Assembly: GCA_004299485.1 (NCBI GenBank)
Contig: SCQP01000016.1
Span: forward strand, 1-64,000
DNA from: Acidobacteriota bacterium
GTDB lineage: Bacteria > Acidobacteriota > Terriglobia > Terriglobales > SCQP01
Direction: 5' to 3'
DNA length: 64,000 nucleotides
In this document: positions 6,254-52,381 of the stretch, one piece after another
Layout of the letters: each line of letters starts with the position of its first letter
Position numbering within the stretch: the first letter of the stretch is position 1
Notes under the pieces: model-generated
Database searches by the model: none
Told to the model about the DNA's origin: nothing
The model's input: only the letters and a program-made list of their open reading frames with translations
Translations under genes and position numbers: made by a program

Positions 6254-7201
6254 CTATATAGAGGTCGAGGCGGTCAGACGGGCGCGAAAGAAGTCTATGG
6301 TCCGGCGCAGACCGTCTTCGAGCGGGATTTGGGGCTGCCAGCCGAGCAACTCGCGGGCGCGGCTGATGTCGGGGCAACGGCGTTTGGGGTCGTCGGTGGG
6401 CAGCGGCTGGAAGGCAATATTCTCGGGCGCACCCACGAGCCGGGCGACCACCCCCGCGAATTCGATAATCGGCGTTTCGGTAGGATTGCCAATGTTGATG
6501 GGGTAAGGATCGGAGCAATCAAGCAGCCGCCGGAGGCCTTCGATCTCGTCCTCCACGTAACAGAAGCTGCGGGTTTGCGAGCCGTCGCCAAACACCGTCA
6601 GTGGCTCGCCCCGCAGCGCCTGGGCCACCAGTGCGGGGACGACGCGGCCATCATCGAGGCGCATGCGTGGCCCATAGGTGTTGAAGATCCGAGCAATCCG
6701 CGTCGGCAGGCCATAGGTGCGGTGATAGGCCATGGTGAGCGCTTCGGCAAAGCGCTTGCTTTCGTCATAGCAGGAGCGCGGCCCGACCGGATTGACGTTG
6801 CCCCAGTAATCCTCGCGCTGCGGATGCACCAGCGGATCGCCATAGGCCTCCGATGTGCAGGTAATCATGAAGCCGGCATTGCGCGCGCGCGCCAGTTCGA
6901 GGCAATTCCAGGTGCCCACGCTGCCCACCCGGAGGATTTCGAGGCGCAACCGGGCGAAATCGACCGGACTCGCCGGTGAGGCGAAATTGGCCACCATCCC
7001 GAGCGGCCCGACATCGGGCAAAGGCTCGCAGATATCGTGGCGCACGAAGGTAAAGCGCGGCTCGCGCTGCAGGCCCTCGAGATTCGCCTCGCTGCCGGTC
7101 ACCAGGTTATCGAGGCAAACGACCGTATGCCCTTCGGCGATCAGCCGGTCGCAAAAATGAGAGCCGAGAAAGCCCGCCCCGCCAGCCACCAAAATGCGCA
7201 T
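6254..7201 (-). CDS. NAD-dependent sugar-nucleotide epimerase/decarboxylase (UXS-like)
   Basis: A short-chain (extended SDR) enzyme of 315 residues starting at the ATG at 7199-7201. The NAD-binding [14 protein letters not shown] sits directly at the N-terminus. Later come NFASPASP, the TSEAYGDP strand with the catalytic Ser/Thr, and YDESKR with the YxxxK pair. The combination of ASPASP and [16 protein letters not shown] closely matches UDP-glucuronate decarboxylase (UDP-xylose synthase), which makes UDP-xylose for surface polysaccharide; a related epimerase is possible. The frame stays open a further 378 bases upstream, into a decayed copy of a small membrane protein gene, because that copy has lost its stop codon. 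I take 7201 as the start because the enzyme family begins exactly there. Confidence 0.85.
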
Positions 7202-7246
7202 GGTTCTCAGACTAGCAGAGGCGCGGGTGGGGACGGTTGCGTGAAC

Positions 7247-7586
7247 TAACGGAAGTCCGCATGACGGGGTATTGCACGCATGATCGTTATGCCGATAGGC
7301 AGCTACGGCGACGCCGAGGATGGCCGCAACCGCGATGATGGCCCAGCGCAGCCAGCGGTGCGACCTACGCACGGACGGCCGCGACTGCTCGGAAAGAGCC
7401 CGGGCGCGGACGCCGGGCAGGAGGGTTCGCGGGGACCTATTGACGGGAGCTTCTGCCGCGTAGCGGCTCGAGCCAACCCGTGCCGTCGCGACCGGCGCTG
7501 CGGCCGTTGGCAGCACAGTCGTGACTGGCGCCTGTGGAGCAGCAAAAAGGCCGAGTGGCGCTAACAGGGCGAGCGTCAAGTCTCAT
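7247..7586 (-). pseudogene. Decayed duplicate of the small signal-peptide/membrane protein gene at 7634-7978
   Basis: On the minus strand this segment mirrors the gene at 7634-7978: a signal-peptide-like [14 protein letters not shown] (parent LASLGLFAAAQAP), an Ala/Pro-rich middle, then [17 protein letters not shown] (parent HHWLRWAIVSVAAILGV) and a terminal GLP. Two lesions are visible. Just after the ancestral ATG (7584-7586) about 5 bases are missing relative to the intact copy, which shifts the frame. At the end, the TAA of the intact copy is TTA here (7247-7249), so the frame runs on into the epimerase. A TTG at 7577-7579 could still open the shifted frame. Most likely a tandem duplication in decay; a genuine fusion protein is less likely. 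Confidence 0.7.
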
Positions 7587-7633
7587 CGATCACCTCTGCC
7601 GACGCACCAGCAGCGAGCCTGGAGCAGATTGAG

Positions 7634-7978
7634 TTATGGCAGCCCCGTTGTGATCTGCTGGGTTTTGACGTTTTTGTTGATCGCAATTATCGCGATTACG
7701 CCGAGAATGGCGGCAACGGAGACGATAGCCCATCGCAGCCAGTGGTGCTGATTACGCGCGGACGGCTGCGTCTGCTCTAGTTGGACCGAATCGCCCGCGG
7801 CGGGTTGGGTGACTCCCGACGGCCGACCAACGGAGGCCCCCGTCGCGTGGCCGATCGAGACAGTCCCTGCCGATGCAGCCGGCACCGCCGCCCGCGACGG
7901 CCCGGGCGTGGCCGGCGCCTGTGCAGCAGCGAAAAGGCCGAGTGACGCGAGGAACGCGAGCGCCAGTAGCAGTTTCAT
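7634..7978 (-). CDS. Small exported protein with C-terminal membrane helix, unknown function
   Basis: A 114-residue protein starting at the ATG at 7976-7978, preceded by GAGAGGCGACCG, a fair ribosome binding site. Residues 1-20 (MKLLLALAFLASLGLFAAAQ) look like a cleavable signal peptide. Residues about 20-75 are Ala/Gly/Pro/Thr-rich and low in complexity. A transmembrane helix WLRWAIVSVAAILGVIAIIAI follows, with a short polar tail ending in GLP. I do not recognise a family. A damaged second copy lies directly downstream (7247-7586), so the gene was tandemly duplicated. The arrangement suggests a small envelope protein. Confidence 0.6.
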   Translation of the reverse strand: MKLLLALAFLASLGLFAAAQAPATPGPSRAAVPAASAGTVSIGHATGASVGRPSGVTQPAAGDSVQLEQTQPSARNQHHWLRWAIVSVAAILGVIAIIAINKNVKTQQITTGLP

Positions 7979-8039
7979 CGGTCGCCTCTCGGGGTTGCTG
8001 GCGCCTTCGCTGATGGCTGAGGTGCGGGTTTCGAGGGCT

Positions 8040-8237
8040 TCACACTGGCCATAGTTCACTGCCAACCTCGTTCGCGTAATGCACCAGCACCGTGCCGTCG
8101 GTCATGAGGATCATGGTTCCAGGATAAAAGCCTATCGGCATGGTCGTCCAGCTTTGGGCGCGAGCAAAAGGCGATGCAAACACGAACGCGAGAAGGGCGA
8201 CACAGCCAAAGAGCCGGGTGACAATTCTCAACAACAT
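8040..8237 (-). pseudogene. Truncated secreted propeller-like protein (N-terminal fragment)
   Basis: A 65-codon frame with a clear signal peptide (LLRIVTRLFGCVALLAFVFA, cut near FARAQ), followed by FYPGTMILMTDGTVLVHYAN. This is like the first blade of secreted Kelch/galactose-oxidase-type propellers, in which a GTMxLLTDGxVMV strand recurs. Such proteins are several hundred residues long, but this frame stops after ELWPV. The start has a good GGAGG site just upstream (8240-8244 on the plus strand reads CTCC). I read it as a gene that lost everything after its first blade; a genuine small secreted protein cannot be excluded. Confidence 0.4.
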
Positions 8238-8467
8238 AACGCCTCCTTAAGACATGTCACGGCGCAATATTTCTCTGCGCACACTGTGACTGTGCCCCCC
8301 CCCCCGCGGCGTGTCAATGTAAAACGTTGAGAAAGAGCGCTCTTCCGGCCTTGGGACGCCAAAGGTCCATTCATCCTTGCGTCGAAATTGTCACAATGCT
8401 GTGAAGATCCAGGCGTGGTGGCGCGAAGGGGCACGCGGATCGGGGCCATGGCAAAATAGAGGATTGC
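8238..8467. other. 230-bp intergenic region upstream of uvrA with C11 tract and 12-bp palindrome
   Basis: This divergent spacer holds a run of 11 C residues (8295-8305) and a perfect palindrome AAGAGCGCTCTT (8333-8344). There is a usable uvrA ribosome binding site (GAGG about 6 bases before the ATG at 8468). I did not find a recognisable LexA box. No gene is seen. The palindrome could be an operator for uvrA or part of a hairpin. Confidence 0.4.
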
Positions 8468-50172: not shown

Positions 50173-51834
50173 TCACTTCCTCACCGCCGCGTAAATCTGC
50201 CGCAGCAGCTCTCCGTTCGTCATACCGCCGTTCCAGCCATGCGGCTTCTCCGGCCGGCCGTAAACGAAGGTGCCGGCATAATGGGGGTTCTTCGTCGTCT
50301 CCAGAAAGTTCTGCATGTCGTACACCCCCAGGTTGAGGTAGTAGGTGTCCATGTCGCCGACGTAAACATGCAGCTTGTTCACCAGCTTCGGCCCGATTGT
50401 GGGCCAGTTGGCTCGCAGATAGGCGGTCAGATCAAAACCGTGATCGCGCCCGTAGGCTACAGCGCTGCGATTGATTGCACCCGTGCGCAGATTCCAGAAC
50501 GGCACCGGATACCCATCCGCTCCAATCGGCCCCCACGAAGCAAAAAAGGCGCAGAGCTGCTGTCCGCTGCGGCAATGCGTCCCCTCGACCGCCTCCGCCT
50601 GGCTCATCTGTTCGTAGTTGACCTCCGGCTGGCCGTTGGGCTCGCGCGACATGTAGCGCGGAACCTTAAGCCACGGGCCAAAACCCGGCGCCCAGAACGC
50701 GTTGGCGTCGTTGTAGGCGTCCACGCTCTGAAAGTGATGAAAATCGAGCGGGTCAGGATACAGCGTCCATGTTCCGCCGAAAAAGTCCGGATGCTTGACC
50801 ATCAGGTTCATCGACTCCCACCCTCCGGTCGATCCGCCCGTAAGCATCCGCGCGCTGGGTTTCCGGTCAATCCGGAAGTGCGTCTCCACGTAGGGAATCA
50901 GCTCCTGCAGGATGGCGTCGCCGTAGGGCCCGGAGTTGACCGAATTCACCGTGTAGCTGTCGTCGTAATAAGGGGTGGGCGTCTGGAAGGTGACCAGAAT
51001 CATCCGCGGGAAATTGGCCGCCGTCCATTCCTGATAGAACTGGTAGCCCGTTTCCATGCCGTACACTTTGCGGATGTAGGCGCTGCGCGCGTTGGGCTGG
51101 CTCGGCGTCGGGTTAAATCCGTACGGCGGCCGCAGATTGAAGTGCCCCTGAATGTAGACCACCGGGTAGGTCATGTGCGGATGCTGCTCGTACCCCGTCG
51201 GCAGCAGCACCGTCGCGCCCATGAAAATCGGGTGCCCCCAGAACTTCGTCAGCATCGGACTTTGAATCTTGATGTGCTTCACCCACGTCGTATCCGCCGG
51301 CATTTTGTGCGGCGGCAGTGCCTGATCCAGCGACAGCGTGATGGTCTGGGCCTGCTGCGGGTCGATATGCACTTTCTGCACCGCGCTGATCAGGTTCCCG
51401 GGGGCGGTATTGAACCGCTGCCCACCCCACTGGTCCATATGCGCCCAGATGACATGCCCGTCCGCACGGGGGAAGCGCGTATAGACGTTCATCAGCGCCT
51501 GTACGTAGTAGTCGCCGGCCGGCAAATCCGCCAGGCTGGTGACCACTGTCCCCAGCGCCGCGTCGTCAACTACCGCCGTCTGCCCCGGCTGGAGCTGGCT
51601 GACATCGGCGCCGAAGAAAGGAATGCTGCCGTCGTAGCCGTTGATCTGCAGGCGCGGCTGCCGCTCATCGCTCCGCGTCACAAACACAAACGCCCGCCCG
51701 GTGACCGGCCCACTATGCACGCTCGCCGGAAACGACAGCGCGAACCGCGTCCCGGAAGAGTGCGACGAACATCCCGCCGCCAGCAGGGCAAGGACGGTTA
51801 ACAGCAGAGTAGCCGCGCAGGTCAGTTTACGCAT
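50173..51834 (-). CDS. Secreted lipoprotein esterase, paralogue of the gene at 48436
   Basis: A 553-residue protein highly similar to the product of 48436-50091 along its whole length. The lipobox signal MRKLTCAATLLLTVLALLAAGCSS is followed by the same beta-rich N-terminal half, nucleophile elbow LTGGSTGGWESMNL, VGDMDTYYLNLGVY and EKPHGWNGGMTN. The start is the ATG at 51832-51834; the frame extends further, but the signal peptide begins here. Substitutions are scattered, with the active-site blocks unchanged, which fits two working copies after tandem duplication. The substrate is unknown. Confidence 0.75.
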   Translation of the reverse strand: MRKLTCAATLLLTVLALLAAGCSSHSSGTRFALSFPASVHSGPVTGRAFVFVTRSDERQPRLQINGYDGSIPFFGADVSQLQPGQTAVVDDAALGTVVTSLADLPAGDYYVQALMNVYTRFPRADGHVIWAHMDQWGGQRFNTAPGNLISAVQKVHIDPQQAQTITLSLDQALPPHKMPADTTWVKHIKIQSPMLTKFWGHPIFMGATVLLPTGYEQHPHMTYPVVYIQGHFNLRPPYGFNPTPSQPNARSAYIRKVYGMETGYQFYQEWTAANFPRMILVTFQTPTPYYDDSYTVNSVNSGPYGDAILQELIPYVETHFRIDRKPSARMLTGGSTGGWESMNLMVKHPDFFGGTWTLYPDPLDFHHFQSVDAYNDANAFWAPGFGPWLKVPRYMSREPNGQPEVNYEQMSQAEAVEGTHCRSGQQLCAFFASWGPIGADGYPVPFWNLRTGAINRSAVAYGRDHGFDLTAYLRANWPTIGPKLVNKLHVYVGDMDTYYLNLGVYDMQNFLETTKNPHYAGTFVYGRPEKPHGWNGGMTNGELLRQIYAAVRK

Positions 51835-51881
51835 GCGCGTAGTGTAGCGGAAAATTTGCGCTTCCGGGACGACGGGTGTAG

Positions 51882-51916
51882 AGTGACTCTCATCAAATCT
51901 CCTCCTGGGAGTCACT
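51882..51916 (+). promoter_or_regulatory. Hairpin immediately before the exported-protein gene
   Basis: Perfect 8-base arms AGTGACTC (51882-51889) and GAGTCACT (51909-51916) with a 19-base loop end at the base before the ATG at 51917. The loop includes CTCCTCCT on the plus strand, so no Shine-Dalgarno sequence is visible. In RNA the hairpin would sit at the ribosome entry site; as DNA it could be an operator. Confidence 0.5.
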
Positions 51917-52381
51917 ATGCGTCGAACTGTGAGCCTTCTGGCCGTTTCCTTCCTGCTGATCACCGCGGCCTTCGCGGTCAATGGCAACAAGGCGGAATAT
52001 GACGGCGGAACCGAAAATCAGGTCAAAACGAAAACCGAGGGGACGGTGTCGACTACAGGCACGGTGAACTTTGTCTTCTCCGCTGATCATGGCTCCATCT
52101 CCATCCCCTACGCCGAAGTCAATGACCTCGAGTACGGCCAGAAGGCGGGCCGTCGTGTCGGCCTGGCCATCATGGTCACTCCGCTCGCCTTGTTCTCCAA
52201 GAAACGCAAACACTTTCTTACCATCGGCTGGAAGGATGAGCACGGCCAGCAGCACGTAGCAATATTCGAGCTGGGCAAGCACATTGTCCGCGTGACCCTC
52301 GCCACGCTGGAAGCCAGGACCGGGCGCAAGGTCGAGTATCAGGACGATGAGGCGCGCAAATCCGGCCTCGGCGGCGAGTAA
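51917..52381 (+). CDS. Exported protein, unknown function
   Basis: A 154-residue protein with a signal peptide (TVSLLAVSFLLITAAFAV). The mature part starts with charged, Thr-rich KAEYDGGTENQVKTKTEGTV, then a PH-like or beta-barrel-like strand set (SISIPYAEVNDLEYG, FLTIGWKDEHGQQHVAIFEL) and a final GRKVEYQDDEARKSG. The pattern EVNDLEYGQKAGRR-V-FSKKRKHFLTIGW recalls a bacterial PH-type domain, but I cannot name a family. The next gene starts on its stop (TAATG), so the two are co-translated. Confidence 0.65.
   Translation: MRRTVSLLAVSFLLITAAFAVNGNKAEYDGGTENQVKTKTEGTVSTTGTVNFVFSADHGSISIPYAEVNDLEYGQKAGRRVGLAIMVTPLALFSKKRKHFLTIGWKDEHGQQHVAIFELGKHIVRVTLATLEARTGRKVEYQDDEARKSGLGGE

Follow-up and report, generated by a model that had tools for sequence, protein, structure and literature searches.

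Probable decay of a duplicated small membrane-protein gene that reads in frame into a UDP-glucuronate decarboxylase-like gene in an Acidobacteriota genome

Eukaryotic UXS1, as in human, carries its own evolved N-terminal membrane anchor. Pseudogenes that stem from tandem duplicates with stop loss occur in bacteria; one of the two copies lacks its start and stop signals, and the open reading frame extends into the next gene. A further point of comparison is a gene pair encoding a Kelch-type protein and a small protein, in which the stop of the Kelch gene overlaps or adjoins the start of the small gene, and which is found elsewhere in the genome studied here (the C14 locus) and in two other genomes (G001:C257 and G009:C64). 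We analyzed 64,000 nucleotides of an Acidobacteriota bacterium (assembly GCA_004299485.1, contig SCQP01000016.1, positions 1 to 64,000), referred to as the window, in which two copies of such a small gene, A and B, lie between uvrA and a gene for an enzyme resembling UXS. From the TTG at 7579, the frame of copy B continues to 6254 through the UXS-like gene, giving 441 codons without a stop, in agreement with the about 440 residues estimated in the preliminary description. The gene order is that of the three Kelch/small-protein pairs; in the window, however, only the two ends of the Kelch gene are left and the small gene occurs twice. With regard to the tandem-duplicate pseudogenes, start and stop signals are likewise lost and no difference in kind is seen; the next gene just happens to be in phase. 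Human UXS1, in contrast, has an anchor of its own, whereas the anchor-like part in the window is the remnant of an unrelated neighbor gene and occurs in one genome only.

We consider it highly probable that the locus reflects the recent decay of a redundant duplicate in a degraded cassette, with chance in-frame read-through into an enzyme whose own start is retained. According to this reading, an extra copy of the Kelch and small-gene cassette in the uvrA-UXS spacer would have degenerated, with the Kelch middle lost and the small gene in tandem. Copy A would have stayed intact, and copy B would recently have lost its in-frame start through a 5-base loss as well as its stop codon. Without this stop, the frame of copy B, open because copy B was once a gene, would reach the UXS ATG after 15 codons, in phase by chance. 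The enzyme would be expressed from its own leaderless mRNA at or near ATG 7201, as in relatives, and the fused frame is presumably not translated. The preliminary description had offered a gene fusion in the making or simple decay as alternatives. Decay gains from the shifted start, the lost stop, the truncated Kelch partner and similar copies that decay in a congener. The idea of a membrane-tethered fusion loses ground through the absence of the cassette in congeners, the promoter and start kept at 7201, the chance openings elsewhere and the lack of a credible start signal. Were the fused protein produced, the locus would show, as is rarely possible, how duplication and loss of a stop codon give rise to a gene fusion. 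The locus also calls for caution, as open frames in high-GC genomes often reach far upstream of the true start codons, and the enzyme could be annotated by automated gene callers with a false 126-residue N-terminal extension that includes a false membrane helix.

The uvrA-UXS spacer comprises 1.27 kb and is largely a degenerate copy of the Kelch and small-gene cassette. All features are summarized in Table 1. The Kelch fragment shares 74-75% identity with the N-terminus of a 564-aa ORF at C14:360776-362467 of the same genome. The tail remnant resembles the Kelch tails KPAQPEAAKSQPQKTGGKK (L072) and KPGKPAPQPAAITPPTSPGGK (L073), and its stop (TGA) overlaps the ATG of copy A (ATGA). As only an N-terminal fragment and an out-of-frame tail are left, the Kelch gene of the window has lost its middle. 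Upstream of the Kelch start, a TCACA/TGTGA inverted repeat is present in both cassette copies of this genome (window about 8410-8390, L072 about 6630-6610), a possible candidate site for a regulator. The spacer between uvrA and the Kelch fragment also contains a run of 11 G at about 8296-8306, a possible trouble spot for sequencing.

Table 1. Features of the uvrA-UXS region of the window, with positions and the observations on which they rest.
Feature	Position	Strand	Basis and details
Non-coding upstream region of the cassette, with homology to the upstream sequence of the Kelch gene on C14 of the same genome	8238..8432	(-)	Local alignment of window 8432-8075 with L072 6656-6306
Kelch-type secreted protein, N-terminal fragment, 58 codons	8064..8237	(-)	Frame stop 8042-8040
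Kelch C-terminal tail remnant VKPSKPAPQPSAKAPATPRGDR, followed by a stop, in another frame than the N-terminal fragment	7975..8043	(-)	Read from sequence
Copy A, intact small gene, 114 aa	7634..7978	(-)	Signal peptide, Ala/Pro linker, one membrane helix
Possible second Kelch-tail remnant (VGRGDR, then a stop) ahead of copy B	7583..7603	(-)	Read from sequence; short
Copy B of the small gene	7247..7586	(-)	Shine-Dalgarno AGAGG 7597-7593; vestigial out-of-frame ATG 7586; in-frame TTG 7579; stop position TTA 7249-7247
TAGTCT, -10 box of the probable leaderless UXS promoter	7209..7214	(-)	TANNNT conservation; ends 7 nt before ATG 7201
UDP-glucuronate decarboxylase (UXS)-like SDR enzyme, 315 aa, own ATG 7201	6254..7201	(-)	phmmer; congener identity

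A fuller cassette of the same genome, with the Kelch gene and one small gene, is located at C14:360218-362467 between tpiA and a tRNA-secG region. Near its 3' end, the Kelch ORF switches frame (L072:4774-4860), and homology to the C-terminal domain of its counterpart in the congener G001 goes on in ORF 4856-4536, which is either a frameshift or an assembly error. In G001 (L073), two copies of the small gene and a third that is truncated come after the Kelch 3' end, and remnants of the Kelch tail lie between these copies. In G009, which belongs to a different genus, the Kelch gene overlaps a gene for a 122-aa protein with a signal peptide and a membrane helix. The occurrence of the cassette in these three genomes identifies the pair as a recurrent unit in the bacterial family, of which tandem copying and decay take place elsewhere too. 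Overlapping or abutting stops and starts were seen in all three genomes of the family (L072:4186-6468 in C14, L073:1634-3724 and L096:1274-3450), and from this arrangement the Kelch protein and the small protein with its signal peptide, Ala/Pro linker and single helix are possibly a translationally coupled pair. Clear homologues of the small protein were restricted to G000 and G001 among 60 genomes searched, those of G001 adjoining the Kelch gene, and a genome-contig search with the small-protein alignment returned one locus on an acidobacterial MAG contig, which equals L073 in length (3726 bp) and is probably the same record. Pfam and NCBIfam gave sub-threshold matches only, the best being SLATT_1 (E 0.0015; 18.5 bits, with the cut-off at 41), and PADLOC gave no match. 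The SLATT_1 assignment was rejected as sub-threshold and taken as generic membrane-helix similarity.

That copy B is a tandem duplicate of copy A, as first proposed from the sequence, is borne out by a local nucleotide alignment score of 110.5, while 300 first-order Markov randomisations of copy B reached a mean of 14.5 and a maximum of 23. The alignment covers the segment from the Shine-Dalgarno sequence to the ATG, the signal peptide, the linker and the WLRWAI..VAAILGV segment. Ahead of copy B, the short VGRGDR remnant is suggestive of a duplicated unit that may have consisted of the Kelch tail together with the small gene. The proposed net loss of 5 bases after the ancestral ATG was recovered as a 5-nt gap directly after ATG 7586, by which the ATG frame closes after 49 codons with a TAG at 7439; entry into the ancestral frame is at TTG 7579. 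That a programmed +1 frameshift leads from ATG 7586 to the frame of copy B was considered and dropped, as inspection revealed no evident slippery site. The exchange of TAA for TTA was found as described as well, codon 7249-7247 reading TTA in copy B and TAA in copy A. Here, the 3' tail of the nucleotide alignment is weak (last 48 nt, P about 0.02); however, the position fits the family, as the A, C14 and G001 copies end 11-15 residues past the conserved HN/KN (the N of the AY.HN motif) and the GLP of copy B ends at residue 12 after the conserved N. With homology to an intact copy and disabling lesions in the form of an out-of-frame ATG and a lost stop, copy B is a likely pseudogene of a duplicated gene. 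An assembly or sequencing error behind the TTA, the 5-base loss or both is scarcely credible. It would be in line with the single assembly available and with the 11-G run farther upstream, which shows that the region has hard-to-read stretches, but it would take two errors, a stop substitution and a separate 5-base indel, and the many ordinary substitutions between the copies make copy B look like an old copy.

Despite a dS of about 0.63 from copy A, copy B has no internal stops, and in simulated neutral decay with 0.3 substitutions per site a 114-codon frame stays open with a probability of 0.18. This makes it probable that copy B spent most of its history as a gene, whose translation either ceased recently or persists via TTG 7579, and that the lesions of its start and stop are recent. 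The dN/dS between the copies is 0.72 overall (0.45/0.63) and 0.34 in the 27 helix-core codons (0.31/0.90), which is compatible with constraint on the helix. The linkers of the small-protein family evolve fast in all pairs compared, and the conserved helix-end residues of the family (AYRHN) are better kept in copy B than in copy A. This openness and the helix conservation are the main residual support for rival readings. One of these is that copy B still functions as a small gene that begins at TTG 7579 and is deprived of its stop, with an enzyme tail that is incidental or cleaved afterwards. The open ancestral frame and the preserved helix core agree with it, yet the start region is degraded and no alternative stop occurs before the end of the enzyme, and we regard it as very unlikely.

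The continuation of the frame into the enzyme has to be judged against chance. Past the TTA, 15 codons are stop-free with a chance of 0.75 in this window, or about 1 in 4 after multiplication by 1/3 for the phase. Upstream of UXS, 4 of 29 relatives have open extensions that are in frame and span 100 codons or more (5 of 30 orthologues if this genome is included), and the openness of the fused frame is therefore unremarkable. The extensions in the four relatives are unrelated to copy B. Open frames of 421-569 codons were followed up as candidates for a conserved fusion and discarded, the inspected extensions not being homologous to copy B; some of the relatives' extensions run antisense to uvrA. 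A 243-codon frame that is unlike copy B and resembles the shadow of another gene is common to three genomes of one genus.

A fused form conserved in relatives, as expected for a genuine fusion, did not emerge from the comparison, and the small gene is absent upstream of UXS in all relatives inspected. In G002-G004, of the same genus, UXS shows 79-82% identity and the same start, and the upstream sequence leads into the divergent uvrA. The congener loci L003-L005 have no small gene between UXS and uvrA, with the UXS start close to the divergent uvrA, and in L095 the UXS start lies 78 bp from the uvrA homology motif. The preliminary description had proposed looking for the same fusion in relatives, and had named a spacer unrelated to the gene at 7634 as the outcome that would speak against it. 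The latter is what the congeners display, with uvrA and UXS back to back and no cassette. The cassette at this site was either gained in this lineage or lost in others.

A real new gene fusion would start at TTG 7579 and read through into the UXS-like enzyme, so that a membrane-tethered enzyme is formed beside the free form. The 441-codon open frame, the available TTG and the membrane-helix motif kept in copy B are consistent with it, and the N-terminal membrane anchoring of eukaryotic UXS1 indicates that a tethered form could work. However, the Shine-Dalgarno sequence lies 13 nt before the TTG, which is too far, and 6 nt before the out-of-frame ATG, and no in-frame start with a well-spaced Shine-Dalgarno sequence was found in copy B. 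Moreover, the positive n-region of copies A and C14 is missing from the first residues that follow the TTG, the small gene adjoins UXS in no relative, the openness is unremarkable as outlined above, and the enzyme retains its native start and predicted promoter. Taken together, such a fusion is very unlikely. A nascent fusion caught just after stop loss, in which the duplicated small membrane protein tethers the UDP-glucuronate decarboxylase to the membrane, appears very unlikely. It would parallel the independently evolved anchor of eukaryotic UXS1, but this likeness is no evidence that the frame is used.

For the enzyme, the best PDB matches in phmmer were human UXS1 structures (2B69, 4GLL; E about 1e-99, residues 2-310), Pfam assigned GDP_Man_Dehyd/Epimerase, and the extended-SDR/UXS motifs GxxGxxG and YxxxK are intact in the translation as GGAGFLG and YDESK. 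By sequence match, the UXS-like enzyme is a predicted UDP-glucuronate decarboxylase. In family f1, a TANNNT ends 5-7 nt before the UXS ATG in 7 of 9 genomes (7 nt in six, this one included, and 5 nt in one). Across 30 orthologues, it was found in 8, against 1.06 +/- 0.98 in shuffles, a comparison in which the relatedness of the genomes overstates independence. A TANNNT located about 12 bp ahead of the start has been described as the -10 box of leaderless genes, which make up a mean of 13.3% of genes in three Acidobacteria (PMC3160421). A sigma-70 consensus scan, which depends on a -35 box and has no model for leaderless promoters that consist of TANNNT only, reported no promoter for copy B or UXS. 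A genuine fusion would be expected to have lost the downstream promoter and start, whereas both ATG 7201 and the TANNNT are retained here. Most likely, synthesis of the UXS-like enzyme relies on a leaderless mRNA of its own whose 5' end is at or beside ATG 7201. Since the conserved TANNNT lies 7 nt before this ATG, the last codons of the supposed fusion frame are probably promoter DNA of the enzyme. The leaderless signal was also sampled among the other genes of the window, where TANNNT 6-7 nt before the start codon recurs (16037, 17804 and 50173-51990); this pattern suggests that leaderless initiation is common in this organism.
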